In this document: positions 2,164-64,000 of the stretch, piece after piece | How positions within the stretch are numbered: position 1 is the first letter of the stretch | Layout of the letters: each line of letters starts with the position of its first letter | Assembly: GCA_009779925.1 (NCBI GenBank) | Contig: WRAZ01000001.1 | Coordinates: 1-64,000, forward strand | Reading direction: 5' to 3' | Length of the DNA: 64,000 nt | Origin: Chitinivibrionia bacterium | Lineage (GTDB): Bacteria; Fibrobacterota; Chitinivibrionia; Chitinivibrionales; Chitinivibrionaceae | Notes under the pieces: generated by a model | What the model was told of the DNA's origin: nothing | The model's database searches: none | Seen by the model: only the letters and a program-made list of their open reading frames with translations | Translations under genes and position numbers: made by a program

Positions 2164-3573
2164 TCAGAAATCCACTATGAGTAGAGTTTGGTCGTCTTTT
2201 GTTTCAGTGCAACCTTTGAAATATTTCAGTTCTTTTGCAATTGATTTGCTTGCACTTTCAGGCGATTTGTCTAATGTTTTAACAACGGCGGATTGTAAGC
2301 GAACAAGTCCGTACATCGCTCCGTCTCTGTTTTGACAGTCGGTTATTCCGTCGGTGTATAAGATAAGTCGGTTTTCATCTTTTTGGTAATTATATTCGTA
2401 ATTTTGAGGGTCAAGTTCCAAAAATGTTCCTATATAAAATCCGCCACTTTGAAACATTTGATATTCTCCGCTGATTTTGTTAAAAACCAAAGTTGGGCAA
2501 TGTCCTGCGTTGGCGTATGTGATTTTGCTCTGATTTGTATCAATAATTGCATAAAACGCCGTCAAGTGTCTCCCTGCATTTACGCTGTTTACCAATGTGT
2601 CGTTCATTTTTTTAAGAGTTTGCGCAGGTTCCAGATTTACTGAAGCAATGGCTTTCAGCGCAGTTTTTGTCGCCGCCATAATAAGCGCCGCGCTTGCTCC
2701 GTGTCCGGCAACATCGGCTATAAATATCGCATAAATTCCCTTATCCAACAAAAATAAATCGTAGTAGTCGCCGCCTATTTCGTCAACGGGTTTGTAAAAT
2801 GCGAAAGCCTGCAAAAAGTAATCGCTCGGAAGATTTTCCGGAAGAAGTTTTTTCTGGACTGCTCGCGCCCGCAAAAGTTCGGCTTTGTATTTCTCGTTTA
2901 CCTGACGCAGTTTGTTCGACACCAGAATATTGTTCATCGTAATTCCCGCAATATGTATAAGCTGTTCGGTGGTCGGGATATTTTCGTTTATGTCAAAATC
3001 ACTCAAATTATCGTAGCCGAAAACAAAAATTCCCGAAACGGGGAAATAAGGGTCTTTGAGAATTTTCTTTTCGTCGCAGAATTCTTCCGTTTCTGCTTCA
3101 TCGTCTGTATCATTTTCGTCAGCGTCATTTTCGTCGGAGTCAATATTAACATCGTTGTCGGCTTGATAAACAAGAGGTATCATCACGTAATTATCCATAT
3201 CCAAACGAAGCGATAACTCGTTGGCTGACTCAAATCCGTTCGATACAATTTTGACTTCTCTTTCAAAAATAGTTGAGATAATTTCGTTGTCGTGTATTTC
3301 AAATATATTAAAAGTAAAATACGGACGCTCTTCTTGCTTAAATCCGTACGAAAAATTTGCTTTTAATTCGGCGGTTTCACAGTCTAAATCCAAAAACAAA
3401 AATTTATTGGAAAAAGCCATCCGAGAAAGGCGCGTTATCAAAGATTTGAATACGTAAGCAAATTCTTTTGCATTGTATATATCTGAAATAAACTCACTTA
3501 TCTGCGAATTTGTCGCTATTTGTTTGCGAAGTTCGAAGATTTCGTATTTTTCTTCATTTTCTTTTGCCCACAT
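2164..3573 (-). CDS. SpoIIE-type PP2C protein phosphatase with N-terminal sensor region
   Basis: 469 residues. The first 220 residues look like a GAF-type sensor interrupted by a very acidic stretch near residues 145-165. A short helical linker (VQKKLLPENLP) leads into a PP2C/SpoIIE domain with the metal-binding motifs DEIGGDYYD, DVAGHGASAAL and DGITDCQNRDG. Such proteins usually dephosphorylate anti-anti-sigma (STAS) proteins, acting like RsbU. No STAS protein or anti-sigma kinase is encoded nearby. The start follows an AAAGGGG ribosome binding site. Confidence 0.85.
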   Translation of the reverse strand: MWAKENEEKYEIFELRKQIATNSQISEFISDIYNAKEFAYVFKSLITRLSRMAFSNKFLFLDLDCETAELKANFSYGFKQEERPYFTFNIFEIHDNEIISTIFEREVKIVSNGFESANELSLRLDMDNYVMIPLVYQADNDVNIDSDENDADENDTDDEAETEEFCDEKKILKDPYFPVSGIFVFGYDNLSDFDINENIPTTEQLIHIAGITMNNILVSNKLRQVNEKYKAELLRARAVQKKLLPENLPSDYFLQAFAFYKPVDEIGGDYYDLFLLDKGIYAIFIADVAGHGASAALIMAATKTALKAIASVNLEPAQTLKKMNDTLVNSVNAGRHLTAFYAIIDTNQSKITYANAGHCPTLVFNKISGEYQMFQSGGFYIGTFLELDPQNYEYNYQKDENRLILYTDGITDCQNRDGAMYGLVRLQSAVVKTLDKSPESASKSIAKELKYFKGCTETKDDQTLLIVDF

Positions 3574-18387: not shown

Positions 18388-18403
18388 CAAATATTATTTT
18401 CCC
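18388..18403 (+). promoter_or_regulatory. Promoter-like element of structured RNA copy 1
   Basis: CAAATATTATTTTCCC immediately precedes the 5' arm of the RNA's closing stem. The same element in the same place precedes copy 2 at 43.5 kb. Confidence 0.6.
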
Positions 18404-18597
18404 AATACCAGAAAGTATGAAGAGTGTGAATATTTCTCGCTTTTCATAGAGCTCTTTAATTTTAATCTAGCCCCACGACAAACAGCCTTTGCAGGTTGTT
18501 CTGTCTTTCGTTCGTGGGTTTCAAATTAAAGAACATCTTCATACTTTCTGGTAAAAATTATGATTTTTGGCAGAACAGCCTTTTGCTGTTTTTGCTT
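18404..18597 (+). ncRNA. Structured RNA of about 195 nt, copy 1 (family unknown, 6S-like shape)
   Basis: A 17-bp closing stem pairs ACCAGAAAGTATGAAGA (18407-18423) with TCTTCATACTTTCTGGT (18536-18552). Inside it are nested stems: TCTTTAATTT with AAATTAAAGA, CCCACGA with TCGTGGG, and AACAGCCT with AGGTTGTT around a TTGC loop. A conserved linker with TTGGCAGAACAGCC leads to a terminator, AACAGC-CTTTT-GCTGTTTTT (18574-18593). A promoter-like element abuts the 5' end and no ORF fits. A long rod with an asymmetric bubble recalls 6S RNA, but I cannot assign it. It could also be a long mRNA leader of the PilX-like gene, but the terminator argues for a separate RNA. Confidence 0.6.
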
Positions 18598-18630
18598 TAA
18601 TCGTTAAACTTTTGGGAAAGGTTGTATCTT

Positions 18631-20598
18631 ATGGGAAAAATGTCTCGTTGCCTAAAAGGCAACAAAGGCGCATCGCTTGTGTATGTGCTTATCACACTTG
18701 TTTTTGTCGGAGCTATTGCAATGCTCGTTCTTAACTCCTCAAGAAAGGAAACTATCGATGCTTCTCTGCGAGCATCTTCGGAAATGGCGCGCTTTGCGGC
18801 GACGTCGGGATTGAATTACGCAGTAAGCTGGCTTGCCGATGCCAATAATGACGACAACGTTTTAAATATTTTGTTAAGTTGGCGAGAACATCAAATAGAC
18901 AATGATGAAGAACCCACTCGATGGCTTACAGGAAACGCTAACGCATACGAACAATTAGACGGTATGAGAGTTAGAGTACAAATAGTAAATGTAGATTTTA
19001 GTCAAATGCGCCGAATAACTCGCAGAGTGGTAAACGATAATGGTACATTCAGGTTTATGTTTCCTCGTCCTACAGACCCCGTTCCAAATATAATACCTGT
19101 AGCCCAAGTAAATACTAATGATCCAAATAATTTATTTACGCAAGTCGCTCCTATCCAAAATTCCAGAATAACTGTATTAATAAGAAGCGAGGCAATAGAC
19201 AGAAGCGGAAGCCGAGCAAGCAATTTGGGGTTTTATACTGTTTTCGGATTTGAGCCTGAGGAAATGGCAGTAGAAATGCAAAATATTCCTCGACACGCGC
19301 TGTTTTCAGGCGGCGGAAATTTGTGGATACATACTCCTGTAACCATAAATGGACCTGCATTTGTCGGAGGAAGAACTGCTGTTGCCGGTGGACTAATAGC
19401 AATTAACGTACCTGCTCAAACAAGTATGTTCAATGGTGAATTTGTATTAGTTCAGCCAGCCGATGCCGAACAATCGCTAATTATGAATATTGACTTTATG
19501 AGTTCTGCCCTATTTGAAGGCGGTCAGGTACATTTTACTAACGCAAATAGTCGTTTTCACGGTCGTTTTGGCGGAAGCTCTACGTTTACAGCAGTTGGTG
19601 CCGATGCAGAAATAGAGAACGGAACTGCTGCTCGAAGAAACTTGGTTATGCTATCAGGCACTTTTGCGGATAGATTGCAAAATCACCCCGTTGATCCGTG
19701 GCCTCCTGCTGGTGGTATCACCGATCCTGGTCATGCTCCAAGTTCCATAATAGGTAGCGGTCTTCGGTTTAGAGGAACTAATACAGCACTAATACGCCGT
19801 AATAATACTGATGTTCAGTATTATACAGGTCCACTCTCGTGTCCAAATTGGTGTGCAAGTCCTGGCAATGTAGAAATCATTAACAATATGACACTCGATC
19901 AAATATCTGACTCATTAGGAATTACCGACAGAAATCCTCCTGCCGTTGGAATGAATATAGAGCATCTTATACCAAGACATCATTCTGAAACCATAAACGG
20001 AAGTACGTTAAATAATTTGTGGGAAAACAATACAAAATACACAGACAGAGCCGGAAGAGAGTGGTTGATACTAGAAGTAGGGAATCCAAATATAATAGCA
20101 ATAAATCCAGGAGGCACGTTTAATCACAGAGCTGTTATTATTGTTAGACCTGGCACTACAGGAAACACAGGCACAGGCGGTAGTCTTTTTAATATGGGAG
20201 ATAGCGCCAACGTATTACTTTTCTTTCCACAAAATTTTGCAGGCACTTGGTCGTATGCTGAAATTCAAGGAAATTTCCGCGGAATGTTTTACAATGCTTC
20301 GCCAGACGCACAGATTAACTTATCTGCCGCCACAGGTGCCGGTTGGATAGTAAATGGCTCGTTTTATAATGCTCCGGAAACAGCAAACTCAAGGATTGTG
20401 TTGGGAACTGGTCAAGTAGGAAGAATAACTGTAAACTATAACCAACAAGTGATATGCGAAATTGCTGACCTTGGTGTTTTTGTGCCAAATGTTAATTGCG
20501 ACCCAGACAATGGCGGTGGTGGCGGCGGCGGAATTCCTGAGCTTCGACGAATTCCTGAAGAGAGAGTAAGAACAGAATTGTTAAACAGAAGTTTTTGA
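18631..20598 (+). CDS. PilX-like pilus/secretion-associated surface protein
   Basis: 655 residues from the ATG at 18631, which has AAAGG at proper spacing. An earlier TTG at 18622 is less likely. The N-terminus KGNKGASLVYVLITLVFVG is a prepilin-like class III segment resembling PilX_N proteins, with one hydrophobic helix. The large extracellular part is beta-rich, with ALFSGGGNLWIHTPVTING typical of polymer-forming or filamentous repeats. A poly-Gly hinge near residue 630 precedes a charged tail (IPEERVRTELLNRSF). It probably sits at a type IV pilus or type II secretion tip. No pilus machinery genes are adjacent. The last ~30 bases recur at 22632 as part of a duplicated segment. Confidence 0.65.
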   Translation: MGKMSRCLKGNKGASLVYVLITLVFVGAIAMLVLNSSRKETIDASLRASSEMARFAATSGLNYAVSWLADANNDDNVLNILLSWREHQIDNDEEPTRWLTGNANAYEQLDGMRVRVQIVNVDFSQMRRITRRVVNDNGTFRFMFPRPTDPVPNIIPVAQVNTNDPNNLFTQVAPIQNSRITVLIRSEAIDRSGSRASNLGFYTVFGFEPEEMAVEMQNIPRHALFSGGGNLWIHTPVTINGPAFVGGRTAVAGGLIAINVPAQTSMFNGEFVLVQPADAEQSLIMNIDFMSSALFEGGQVHFTNANSRFHGRFGGSSTFTAVGADAEIENGTAARRNLVMLSGTFADRLQNHPVDPWPPAGGITDPGHAPSSIIGSGLRFRGTNTALIRRNNTDVQYYTGPLSCPNWCASPGNVEIINNMTLDQISDSLGITDRNPPAVGMNIEHLIPRHHSETINGSTLNNLWENNTKYTDRAGREWLILEVGNPNIIAINPGGTFNHRAVIIVRPGTTGNTGTGGSLFNMGDSANVLLFFPQNFAGTWSYAEIQGNFRGMFYNASPDAQINLSAATGAGWIVNGSFYNAPETANSRIVLGTGQVGRITVNYNQQVICEIADLGVFVPNVNCDPDNGGGGGGGIPELRRIPEERVRTELLNRSF

Positions 20599-38263: not shown

Positions 38264-40405
38264 TCACTGCGCCCACGATATCCGCAAATCCTTTTTGTGT
38301 CCGTCGGCGTTTATTCTGACAATATACACACCTTTCGGCAACCGCGCCAAAGATACGGTGTGTGCGCCCGCCGAAAAATTGCGCTTGCTCAGCATTCTTC
38401 CGTTTATTGAAAATATGCTGACCTCCGCTTTTTGATTGACTTGCAACTCTACGCCTCTGCGTGTAATTTGATAGCGAATGCCGCCTGCGGTTGTTTGAGA
38501 GTTTTGCGGACGGTTAGGCGTAATTGATATCGGACTGTCGGCGCGATTTACGAATTTTGAGAGCAATCGGATATACGACATCTGGTAGCCGTTGCTGTTT
38601 TCGGTGATTTCCCAAGAGTTTATGGGCCAACAGACGTTTGTTTCTACGAACATTCTTGCGGGCGGCGTTATGTTGCTGTCGGGAATTTCCACAAGAAAAC
38701 ACCTTGCATTGTTTTGTGTCGAGCCACAAGCCGAAGGACAACAGCCGTCCCATTTATATCTGGAATTGGGTCCGCCGACCAAAAAACCGGGCGCGGGACC
38801 GGGAGTTGTGGCTGTTGTTATGCTCCATCTCGGCGAATTTTCGCTGAACCACGCGTGATAAAATGTTCTTTGGCTTCTTGTGGCGCCGTATCGCTCCATA
38901 TTTGTCAAATAAACCCAATTAAACGGATTTACGCCGTGAAGATAATGCAAATAACCCTCGGCAATCTCGCGGAATTTTTGCCTGTCTATCGACGGGTCAA
39001 TCTCGTGCCACCTGTAAAATGTCAGTCCGTAGTCCGCTTTTGCCTTATTGGAGCCCCAGTTGTAATCGGCGATAAATGCGCGGTAGCCGTCGGTGCGGTG
39101 GGCGCCGTAAAAGTCGTCGGGTCTTACAAAAGCCGTGCGCATAGCGTTTCGTATGTCGTTCTTAAATTGGGGGTCGCCGCTCGGATTTTTCAAATAATCC
39201 ATAAATAAAATATGTTGCGAATGCCTGTAATGATCCATAAAACTATACCAAGCAAAAAGCGGTAATCTCCTCATTGCCGTTTCCGCAATTCTTAAAAGAG
39301 AGTCCGCGCCCGTTAATTCGTAAAGATAAAAAGCCGCCGCCGCCAAGTTTTCCGACCTGCCGCCCGTGCCGTCGTCCATTATTTCTTGATTTCCTGCCGC
39401 AAGTCCCACTGAGTTGTTGGAAGCAACGTTGTTGGCGAACATAGAATCGGGGTGCGCAAAACCCCATTCCCACGCTTTTATCGCCGCCGTTCTTAATCGG
39501 TTTATGTATTCGGAATTCGCATATCCGCGTTCTTGTAAAACGCGCGCCGCAACGGCAAACGCCTTAACGGAGCCGAAAGCCGCAGTTGCATTGGGCGGAC
39601 CGTAGAAACTTGTCCCCGTAGCGGCAGACGGCGGAGAAGCGTGAGCAAGCCCTTGCACGCTAAGCATTGAGCCGTCGTCGTTTTGCATTCGCAAAAGCCA
39701 GTCAAGTCCCCATTTTGCTTCGTCGATTATGTCGGGAATACCGTTGCCCGATTCGGGAATGCCGAAGTCGTCGGTAAATGCGCGGGGATTTCCTTCGTAT
39801 GCAAAAAACATTTCGGCGATGTAGTCGGCAGTCCATTTTGTGTATTTATTGTAGTCGCCTGCGTCAAACCAACCGCCGCTTAAATCCCGTTCTCTCGACG
39901 CGTCGTTCGGCGCAAAAAAGTCGCGGGTGCGCCTGTCTTGTTCAAATGCCATTCCGTCTGCCCATTCTGCACCTGCAAATTGCGCCGTTTTGGCAATTCC
40001 CGCGCGCTGATAATAAAAAGTTCTTACCGCGGCTCTAAGAATATCGTTATATATATCGTTGCCTATTCGGAAAGAATACGAGCGAATATTACCGTTGCCT
40101 CTTATATGATAGCGCCCCGCCGCATTCACGCTCGAAAAATCAAAATGCCAAAGTATGTCGCCCGAAGCGACGTCGGCAATTCCATCGTTAAAAATTACGG
40201 GACTACCCGAAAAAACCGTATCTCCCGTTGCCTCGTCGATAACGCTAAACTCGCCGCCTTGCAACGACAAACCACGGATAACGGCAATTTTCTTTGCCTG
40301 CTCGCGATAACCGAATTGGTCAATAATAATTTCTTGCGCCCCAACGCCGCCGGCAATTATCAGTATCGCCGAAAAGATTTTTGCAAAGATTACAGGTTTT
40401 TTCAT
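38264..40405 (-). CDS. Secreted GH9 cellulase (endoglucanase) with C-terminal sorting domain
   Basis: 713 residues. A signal peptide (about 1-23) is followed by an Ig-like CelD_N domain (24-115) and the GH9 (alpha/alpha)6 catalytic domain from about 120 to 625. Catalytic residues are DAGD at 181-184 (nucleophile/base) and the C-terminal acid in NSWEITENSNGYQ. The last ~70 residues (VEVSIFSINGRML-like segment, PKGVYIVRINADG) form a FlgD/T9SS-like sorting domain. It hydrolyses beta-1,4-glucan outside the cell. The closing stretch CCPSACGSTQNNARCF may be disulphide-bonded. It has its own promoter. Confidence 0.93.
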   Translation of the reverse strand: MKKPVIFAKIFSAILIIAGGVGAQEIIIDQFGYREQAKKIAVIRGLSLQGGEFSVIDEATGDTVFSGSPVIFNDGIADVASGDILWHFDFSSVNAAGRYHIRGNGNIRSYSFRIGNDIYNDILRAAVRTFYYQRAGIAKTAQFAGAEWADGMAFEQDRRTRDFFAPNDASRERDLSGGWFDAGDYNKYTKWTADYIAEMFFAYEGNPRAFTDDFGIPESGNGIPDIIDEAKWGLDWLLRMQNDDGSMLSVQGLAHASPPSAATGTSFYGPPNATAAFGSVKAFAVAARVLQERGYANSEYINRLRTAAIKAWEWGFAHPDSMFANNVASNNSVGLAAGNQEIMDDGTGGRSENLAAAAFYLYELTGADSLLRIAETAMRRLPLFAWYSFMDHYRHSQHILFMDYLKNPSGDPQFKNDIRNAMRTAFVRPDDFYGAHRTDGYRAFIADYNWGSNKAKADYGLTFYRWHEIDPSIDRQKFREIAEGYLHYLHGVNPFNWVYLTNMERYGATRSQRTFYHAWFSENSPRWSITTATTPGPAPGFLVGGPNSRYKWDGCCPSACGSTQNNARCFLVEIPDSNITPPARMFVETNVCWPINSWEITENSNGYQMSYIRLLSKFVNRADSPISITPNRPQNSQTTAGGIRYQITRRGVELQVNQKAEVSIFSINGRMLSKRNFSAGAHTVSLARLPKGVYIVRINADGHKKDLRISWAQ

Positions 40406-43329: not shown

Positions 43330-43522
43330 AAGACAAAAACAGCAATAGGCTGTTCTGCCAAATAATTCATATTTTGCAACAAATAGTGATTATCATCCAA
43401 CTTTAAGTAAAAAAGAGAGAAAACAAGAACAATCTCACACATAAGGTTGCTCTCTCAAATTTACTTGAGAGAAAAGGGTGATTTGCAAGGATATAATCCC
43501 GACAAAACACTATTTGTTGCGT
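43330..43522 (-). ncRNA. Structured RNA of about 195 nt, copy 2
   Basis: On the minus strand the closing stem pairs GCAACAAATAGTG (43520-43508) with CACTATTTGTTGC (43388-43376). It is extended inside by GATTAT/ATAATC and TCC/GGA pairs, and AAGTAAA...GAGAG pairs with CTCTC...TTTACTT further in. It ends with the linker TTTGGCAGAACAGCC and the terminator AACAGC-CTATT-GCTGTTTTTG (43354-43338), almost identical to copy 1. The inner sequence has little similarity to copy 1, yet length, layout, promoter and 3' end are the same. No ORF fits. The region 43098-43644 holds only this RNA and repeats. Confidence 0.6.
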
Positions 43523-43541
43523 GGGTAAAATAATATTTATT
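43523..43541 (-). promoter_or_regulatory. Promoter-like element of structured RNA copy 2
   Basis: Reads AATAAATATTATTTTACCC on the minus strand, directly before the RNA's 5' arm. Confidence 0.6.
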
Positions 43542-63510: not shown

Positions 63511-63740
63511 AGAAAAAACAATCTGTATTTGCAAAAAATCAGTTAACATCATTTTTTTGCTATTTTCCACAAAAAACCGTCCAATCTCCAACTTTCGTCT
63601 TATATGTGGCGTTTGCGTAAAAAACTAAACACTGTTTAAAGCACTGTTTAACTAATATGTTATCCATTATTTTTTCTGAAACAGAATAAGATGTAATAGA
63701 AATCCGTAAAAAAACCGCCAATTCACCACTCCTCTCCAAA
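63511..63740. other. Intergenic stretch between relBE and aspS
   Basis: No gene is convincing here. The one visible signal is a tandem direct repeat, CACTGTTTAA at 63630-63639 and 63642-63651, spaced by two bases so that the copies lie one helical turn apart. It may be a regulator site for either divergent gene. A rightward frame is not open across it. Confidence 0.35.
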
Positions 63741-63758
63741 ACAAATATTATTTTTACC
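63741..63758 (+). promoter_or_regulatory. Promoter-like element of aspS
   Basis: Reads ACAAATATTATTTTTACC, 27 bases before 63786. Confidence 0.6.
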
Positions 63759-63785
63759 CTCGAAAATTACACGAAAGGAAAATTT

Positions 63786-64000
63786 ATGGCGAATTTGTAT
63801 CGCACGCACACTTGCGGGGAACTCTCTAAACAGAATATCGGAGCAGAAGTAAAAGTCAGCGGTTGGATACACAACAGACGCGACCACGGCGGAGTGCTTT
63901 TTATTGATTTGCGCGACCACTACGGCATTACACAGGTTGTGATTTACCCCGACAATCCCAATCAATACGCAATCGGACACTTGCCGAAAGAAACTGTTGT
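63786..64000 (+). CDS. aspS: Aspartyl-tRNA synthetase, N-terminal fragment (cut by window edge)
   Basis: 71 codons of the OB-fold anticodon-binding domain. [39 protein letters not shown] and [10 protein letters not shown] are the conserved start of bacterial AspRS. The start has GAAAGGAAAATTT. The catalytic domain lies beyond the window, so the discriminating/non-discriminating type cannot be told. Confidence 0.95.

Follow-up and report, generated by a model that had tools for sequence, protein, structure and literature searches.

A high-copy family of 5′ leader RNAs with a conserved pseudoknot and candidate switch strands in termite-gut Chitinivibrionia

T-box leaders are long, occur in many copies per genome and contain an antiterminator and a terminator that are mutually exclusive. 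The RNA family described here was met in a window of 64,000 nucleotides (the whole stretch of DNA analysed, positions 1 to 64,000 of contig WRAZ01000001.1 of a Chitinivibrionia bacterium). It resembles the T-box in copy number, leader length and exclusive alternative pairings, but the genes that follow its leaders are not aminoacyl-tRNA or amino-acid genes. In pseudoknotted riboswitches such as preQ1, SAM-II and others, the 3′ strand of the pseudoknot is also claimed by the expression platform, and docking excludes the terminator or sequestration of the ribosome-binding site. The present family likewise has a pseudoknot 3′ strand with a rival partner in a putative platform; however, it is unrelated to these riboswitches in sequence and architecture and matches none of them in Rfam, its stems are hypervariable within one genome, and no ligand-linked pathway genes accompany it. 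EAR and put are structured RNAs near the 5′ part of operons that bring about processive antitermination by acting on RNA polymerase, and EAR is pseudoknotted. The family shares with them its place near the 5′ part of operons and with EAR the pseudoknot, whereas most of its copies hold a local competing strand, D.

In Geobacter metallireducens a conserved 5′ sequence is found at 16 sites, where it overlaps predicted c-di-GMP riboswitches (PMC2700814), and this is the nearest precedent in copy number that was found. The multi-copy c-di-GMP riboswitches of Geobacter (GEMM) are alike in placing one leader class ahead of many extracellular and surface genes, but the family described here has a different fold (a long P1 stem and a 12-bp pseudoknot), is restricted to one genus and is present in 60 copies in 2.5 Mb, several times the number of G. 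metallireducens sites (PMC2700814). Termite-flg and Termite-leu (RF01729, RF01730), which are known from termite hindgut metagenomes only (PMC2864571), are similar in being structured-RNA candidates of that habitat.

Neither the window nor any of ten copy-bearing loci is matched by the Rfam models for the T-box, EAR, the c-di-GMP riboswitches (GEMM), Termite-flg or Termite-leu. At gathering scores the 64-kb window contained tRNA alone, with neither RNA copy matched, and at E ≤ 1 the weak matches in the ten loci all lay outside the element. Searches of open-licence papers turned up no account of a multi-copy RNA in this lineage. The family is new and previously unlisted.

Architecture of the RNA and its two copies in the window

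The general fold comprises a closing stem P1, which joins the 5′ end of the RNA to its 3′ side over 13–22 bp as a rule, two hairpins, the short P2 and the long P3, and a strand B (consensus GGYTGTTCTGYC) on the 3′ side of the P3 tip. On the 3′ side of P1 an A/T-rich linker, mostly of 13–16 nt, leads to strand C (GGCAGAACAGCC). Because P1 encloses B but not C, their 12-bp complementarity makes a pseudoknot. Downstream of C, most copies in the genome from which the window derives (G000) carry strand D (GCTGTTTYTGC), which is able to pair with C. The sequences of P1 to P3 are private to each copy and those of B and C near-universal; outside these two strands, the linker and a few bases of the joining regions, sequence conservation is poor.

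An earlier note, made from the letters of the window, had proposed two copies of a structured RNA, and the architecture that it described for both was confirmed: a −10-like element AAATATTATTTT, a closing stem 6–7 nt later, nested stems, TTTGGCAGAACAGCC and then GCTGTTTTTG. Folded alone, copy 1 (18406–18597, plus strand) has an energy of −67.2 kcal/mol (compared with 200 dinucleotide shuffles, z = −8.0) and copy 2 (43521–43330, minus strand) −56.9 kcal/mol (z = −6.0 against dinucleotide shuffles), which bears out the structured RNA. The closing stem does lie within a few bases of the promoter, but begins right at the predicted transcription start: the base of P1 is the predicted first nucleotide, 6–7 nt past the −10 region (18406 in copy 1, 43520/43521 in copy 2). 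The TTTGGCAGAACAGCC region, which had been taken for a linker, is one strand of the 12-bp pseudoknot. The features of the two copies are as follows.

18389–18400, plus strand: −10 region of copy 1, AAATATTATTTT; conserved 6–17 nt 5′ of P1 in the first set of 62 copies
18406–18423, plus strand: P1 5′ strand of copy 1, TACCAGAAAGTATGAAGA, the predicted 5′ end of the RNA; 18 bp with 18536–18553
18420–18446, plus strand: P2 hairpin region of copy 1, ends approximate; P2 is weak in this copy
18453–18532, plus strand: long hairpin P3 of copy 1 (TCTTTAATTTTAA/TTCAAATTAAAGA, then CCCACG/CGTGGG), from per-copy stems
18481–18487, plus strand: A strand of copy 1, AACAGCC, which can pair with B at the P3 tip (apical hairpin energies)
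18494–18505, plus strand: B strand of copy 1, GGTTGTTCTGTC, in the P3 tip; 12/12 pairs with C
18536–18553, plus strand: P1 3′ strand of copy 1, TCTTCATACTTTCTGGTA; pairs with the P1 5′ strand
18554–18568, plus strand: A/T-rich linker of copy 1 from P1 to C, AAAATTATGATTTTT; 13–16 nt in 53/62 copies, TATGA conserved
18569–18580, plus strand: C strand of copy 1, GGCAGAACAGCC, partner of B or D and candidate switching strand
18585–18596, plus strand: D strand of copy 1, GCTGTTTTTGCT, alternative partner of C in a terminator-like hairpin; C plus the downstream 28 nt gives −11.1 kcal/mol, against −5.8 with the downstream part shuffled
18614–18620, plus strand: Shine-Dalgarno-like purine stretch after copy 1 (GGGAAAGG region), from the sequence
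18631–20598, plus strand: gene after copy 1, with its ATG 50 nt past C; the 655-aa product has a hydrophobic, pilin-like N-terminus and matches no Pfam family
43527–43538, minus strand: −10 region of copy 2, AAATATTATTTT, from the sequence
43348–43521, minus strand: copy 2 from P1 to C; 100.3 bits, E 2e-19 with covariance model R1, in whose training set it lies
43505–43520, minus strand: P1 5′ strand of copy 2, GCAACAAATAGTGTTT; pairs with 43376–43391
43376–43391, minus strand: P1 3′ strand of copy 2, AATCACTATTTGTTGC; pairs with 43505–43520
43423–43434, minus strand: B strand of copy 2, GATTGTTCTTGT, degenerate; 9/12 pairs with C
43348–43359, minus strand: C strand of copy 2, GGCAGAACAGCC, from the sequence and B:C pairing
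43332–43343, minus strand: D strand of copy 2, GCTGTTTTTGTC; no leader-type gene follows on the same strand

The 230 nt downstream of copy 2 contain no ORF with a ribosome-binding site. Since its B strand is degenerate and a leader-type gene is missing downstream, copy 2 is probably decaying.

The long P1, which starts from the predicted first nucleotide and is near-perfect in all copies, would also be expected of a constitutive 5′ element that senses nothing, with P1 closing off the 5′ end and the pseudoknot guarding abundant messages for secreted proteins from decay or localising them at the membrane. For stability, however, neither a conserved pseudoknot nor the competing strands A and D would be needed, and this explanation is regarded as distinctly improbable.

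Distribution of the family and constraint on its helices

The earlier note knew of just two copies, a count that has been superseded. The covariance model R1, built from an alignment of 62 extracted copies (51 from G000 and 11 from the sister species G001), finds 60 copies in the 2.5 Mb genome of the bacterium itself and 27 matches in the sister species, 25 of them distinct and two duplicating others (E < 1e-7 in both; R1 E-values are rough, and training copies match the model by construction). The copies are about 175–195 bases long, and both window loci belong to the family. In the same genome a blastn search with copy 1 as query gave 38 matches, and a gapped B...C pattern matched exactly 49 times, with some sites scored for both strands; reversing the pattern as a control gave 0. 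The aligned set comprises 85 distinct copies, of which 23 lie outside the training set of R1.

The sister species is the MAG WRFX01, 'Chitinivibrionia bacterium Mp193P3bin36' (Fibrobacterota, same genus, termite hindgut); in its sample code Mp193 stands for Microcerotermes parvus and P3 for a hindgut compartment (PMC7024585). The search of related genomes that had been suggested as a check thus returned covarying homologues in this species. Among 149 other Fibrobacterota genomes, three of the same family included, the R1 search gave no convincing copy, and four weak matches of about 26 bits (E 0.01–0.02 per genome) were taken as chance. A pattern scan of genome contigs yielded 19 stretches, 14 of which were folded; P1 and promoter were present only in the two from the sister species, and the others scored at most 18.7 bits with R1. 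Six pattern matches in IMG/VR were likewise without R1 support. Judged by these searches, the family is restricted to one genus among the genomes searched, with two species known.

The closing stems of the two window copies had been described as different in sequence and yet paired, and this observation extends to the whole family. The basal 13 bp of P1 are paired in 99.6% of cells in cis and in 55.8% with partners from other copies (62 copies), the inner 5 bp of P2 in 96% and 55% (across the family) and lower P3 in 97% and 46% (59 copies), the cis figures being helped by the location of helices in each copy through maximal pairing. In the P1 search the copies have a median score of 39 and none is below 31, compared with a median of 15 and a maximum of 31 for random genomic sequence. 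In the 85-copy alignment 92.7% of pair cells are paired, against 38–52% in controls with the partners slid by 1–3 columns. Both sides have changed in 34 of the 43 pairs, and the number of cells changed on both sides is 755 against 229 in shuffles; none of 500 shuffles was as high, nor did any equal any of the observed pairing values.

The R1-based alignment leans to P1–P3, and the B:C helix lies outside the model. Across the 85 copies this helix is 98.4% paired, with changes on both sides in three pairs and on one side alone in seven. Coupled changes of C and B occur in sister-species copies outside the training set, for example GATAGAGCAGCC with GGTTGTTCTATC, GGTAGGACAGCC with a B ending in CTACC and GGCAGGGCGACC with GGTCGTTCTGTT; in copies outside the training set, none of 5000 permutations reached the observed cis pairing of B and C. 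The sequences thus show P1, P2, P3 and the B:C pseudoknot to be under pairing constraint.

B pairs with the C strands of other copies nearly as well as with its own (97.8% and 98.4%), while the remaining helices are copy-specific. This interchangeability is what would be expected if the leaders paired with one another and cross-regulated their genes in trans, for example to cap the number of surface proteins made together. The compensatory changes of B and C inside single copies speak of selection on pairing in cis, and such a network appears very unlikely.

The earlier note had considered a mobile RNA element. Spread through the genome of such an element or of a repeat, whether REP-like or of the transposon or integron type, would account for many copies in one genus only, but is not needed to explain them and is judged less likely still. 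Every copy is served by a separate promoter and in most cases precedes a separate gene. Fold, promoter, place before a start codon and orientation with respect to the gene are all fixed while the interior sequence differs. Stems of unrelated sequence stay paired as they diverge, unlike recently copied DNA; strands from different copies pair to only about 46–56%, mean column identity is 40%, and a few copies share stretches of P3.

Two further points were set aside. A possible strand swap involving the linker motif ATGAAT and the P1 3′ strand appears not to be kept, as judged by reading the copies. The correlation between P1 length and distance to B (rho = −0.47) was not used since it is partly built in, the distance being measured from the top of P1.

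Genes and promoters associated with the leaders

C is followed within 120 nt by a ribosome-binding site and the start of an ORF in 69 of 84 copies, and within 230 nt in 72 of 84. A home-made rule for signal peptides predicts secretion for 44 of 63 leader genes and for 24 of 118 other ORFs at the same loci (p = 9e-11); the rule was tightened and the control set enlarged after a first, too loose version had given no separation (54/72 leader genes against 20/33 controls). From position and predicted products, the copies are 5′ leaders of genes, mostly of ones for secreted proteins. The mature parts of these proteins are diverse, with the commonest Pfam family, GLUG, in 5 of 64 and Listeria-Bacteroides repeats in three; a few leader genes without obvious secretion encode an FRG domain or a glycosyltransferase. 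The downstream genes form no common pathway pointing to a ligand. In genes with related N-termini, for example MPFSKFKVAAIAVLLSIG.. (G000 C12:1577) and MRSSKFKVAAIAVLLSVG.. (L188), the leader is kept in both species with a different P1 stem.

The proposal of a new small-RNA family stands as far as novelty is concerned, but not for a primarily free-standing RNA, as most copies precede genes. A likeness to 6S RNA had also been seen, and the length and rod-like outline are indeed similar; a stop of transcription at the C:D hairpin could moreover let leader RNAs of about 190 nt build up. However, the Rfam 6S model (RF00013) matches neither the window at its gathering score nor any of the ten copy-bearing loci at E ≤ 1, and the best 6S candidate of the genome lies elsewhere (L208, G000:C15:41331-41517, minus strand, 40.3 bits, E 1e-6; Rfam cut-off 46.4). 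The chance that the copies are free 6S-like RNAs is thus put at next to nil.

The promoter of the leaders, CCACT...AAATAnTATTTT, is also found ahead of leaderless genes, namely a transporter-like gene and the likely aspS (aspartyl-tRNA synthetase), which lies at the right edge of the window and has CCACTCCTC..AAATATTATTTT directly 5′ of it at 63726–63787. A special promoter for the regulon was rejected because these leaderless genes use the identical type, which by its distribution is the ordinary, housekeeping-type promoter of the organism. Since the promoter is common to leaderless genes, specific regulation, if any, probably acts after initiation.

Several observations concern the neighbourhood of the leaders. 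Five leaders lie on one strand within about 10 kb at G000:C24:10580-20713, three of them preceding very short, similar ORFs. Short ORFs with similar starts (..NPLTTARGRN.SLSLSL..) have long CT dinucleotide repeats just inside them at about nine sites of the genome, among them L034 (downstream of leader C1:138337), L137 (C3:129608 onward) and L141 (C45:5678); these ORFs resemble repeat-driven phase variation, one of them follows a leader and one array is nearly at a contig end. The window also encodes a GH9 cellulase with a C-terminal secretion sorting domain (Por_Secre_tail; 38264–40405), which fits a fibre-degrading gut bacterium.

Competing pairings and a proposed mechanism

C and B each have two mutually exclusive partners, B upstream and D downstream for C, and A and C for B. 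On average the B:C pairing is worth −18.5 kcal/mol, and pairing of B with A in the P3 tip −10.0 kcal/mol in cis, −8.3 in trans and −5.6 with A shuffled. The C:D pairing averages −10.3 kcal/mol in G000 against −5.6 for shuffled downstream sequence, which it clearly beats in 43 of 51 copies, whereas in the sister species it is much weaker and the gain is slight (−6.2 against −4.7). Of the 3′ terminator proposed earlier, the hairpin is present, but a clean intrinsic terminator is not: in copies 1 and 2 the hairpin pairs all of GGCAGAACAGC with GCTGTTTTTGC and takes part of the U-tract into the stem, and since the consensus terminator scan did not call it either, its status as an intrinsic terminator is borderline. 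Sequences after C that are complementary to the ribosome-binding site occur in the sister species and some G000 copies, strikingly so in L189, L201, L202 and G001_C155, and this pairing is significant in 15 of 64 copies tested. The B:C fold would thus stay constant while the platform varies, as in riboswitch families.

These exclusive pairings of A, B, C and D have a switch-like anatomy and are read as parts of an attenuator. Together with the 5′ leader position and the conserved, covarying fold, both characteristic of riboswitches, they suggest that the family is a cis-acting, riboswitch-like attenuator controlling a regulon of about sixty mostly secreted-protein genes, a reading to which a probability of roughly 0.6 is assigned. 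Sensing and switching may be inferred from the sequence as follows. Transcription would begin at the base of P1 from the housekeeping-type promoter of each copy, and P1, P2 and P3 would form before C emerges. If the emerging C docks on B, D would be left free and the gene expressed; an undocked C would pair with D in the terminator-like hairpin and the message would be stopped. Where D is weak or absent, control would pass to translation, through a stretch past C able to pair with the ribosome-binding site. In all copies the balance between B:C and C:D would depend on one shared signal (a metabolite, an ion, temperature or a protein), to which the conserved pseudoknot and the joining regions would respond.

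The poor conservation outside B, C, the linker and a few joining bases would be unusual for a metabolite aptamer and counts against such a riboswitch. The attenuator is further weakened by the lack of a terminator call for C:D, the slight C:D gain in the sister species, the small share of copies with anti-ribosome-binding-site pairing and the absence of a pathway that names a ligand. B and C are near-invariant in sequence beyond what pairing demands, as expected of a helix read by a protein, and the leaders all lie at the extreme 5′ end of transcription units with ordinary promoters. Both features suit a leader whose B:C helix is recognised by a lineage-specific RNA-binding protein or by RNA polymerase, leading to readthrough in the manner of put and EAR or to recruitment of ribosomes. 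The Rfam searches of the window and ten loci, EAR included, lend this no support, and the local alternative partner D favours simple attenuation; protein dependence is therefore held to be rather unlikely, if the most plausible of the alternatives.

Returning to the riboswitch-like attenuator, it may tentatively be extended to a genus-specific class of RNA sensor on about 60 surface and secreted-protein genes. This would be a global regulon without a dedicated transcription factor, in which a universal 12-nt switch strand set in gene-private stems answers to one signal, with possible cross-talk between messages by way of B and C, which are interchangeable. Should the switch be real, a single RNA fold, and not a transcription factor, controls a large part of the surface and secreted proteins of an uncultured termite-gut lineage. 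The family is also a natural experiment that offers 85 distinct solutions to one fold, with the stems drifting freely and the pseudoknot fixed, so that the copies reveal directly which nucleotides are required, and simple biochemistry can be used to look for a ligand or partner. It suggests that lineage-restricted, high-copy regulatory RNAs can escape notice because their stems do not align in sequence.

Two other structured regions were observed. L013 has several weak Rfam small-RNA matches on both strands at 2905–3069, which suggests a strong inverted repeat. In L191, L192, L193, L199 and other loci of the sister species, a second conserved hairpin region (TTCGGCAATAACAATAACGTTTTTGCATAA) of terminator-like appearance lies 30–100 nt past C, ahead of the genes.
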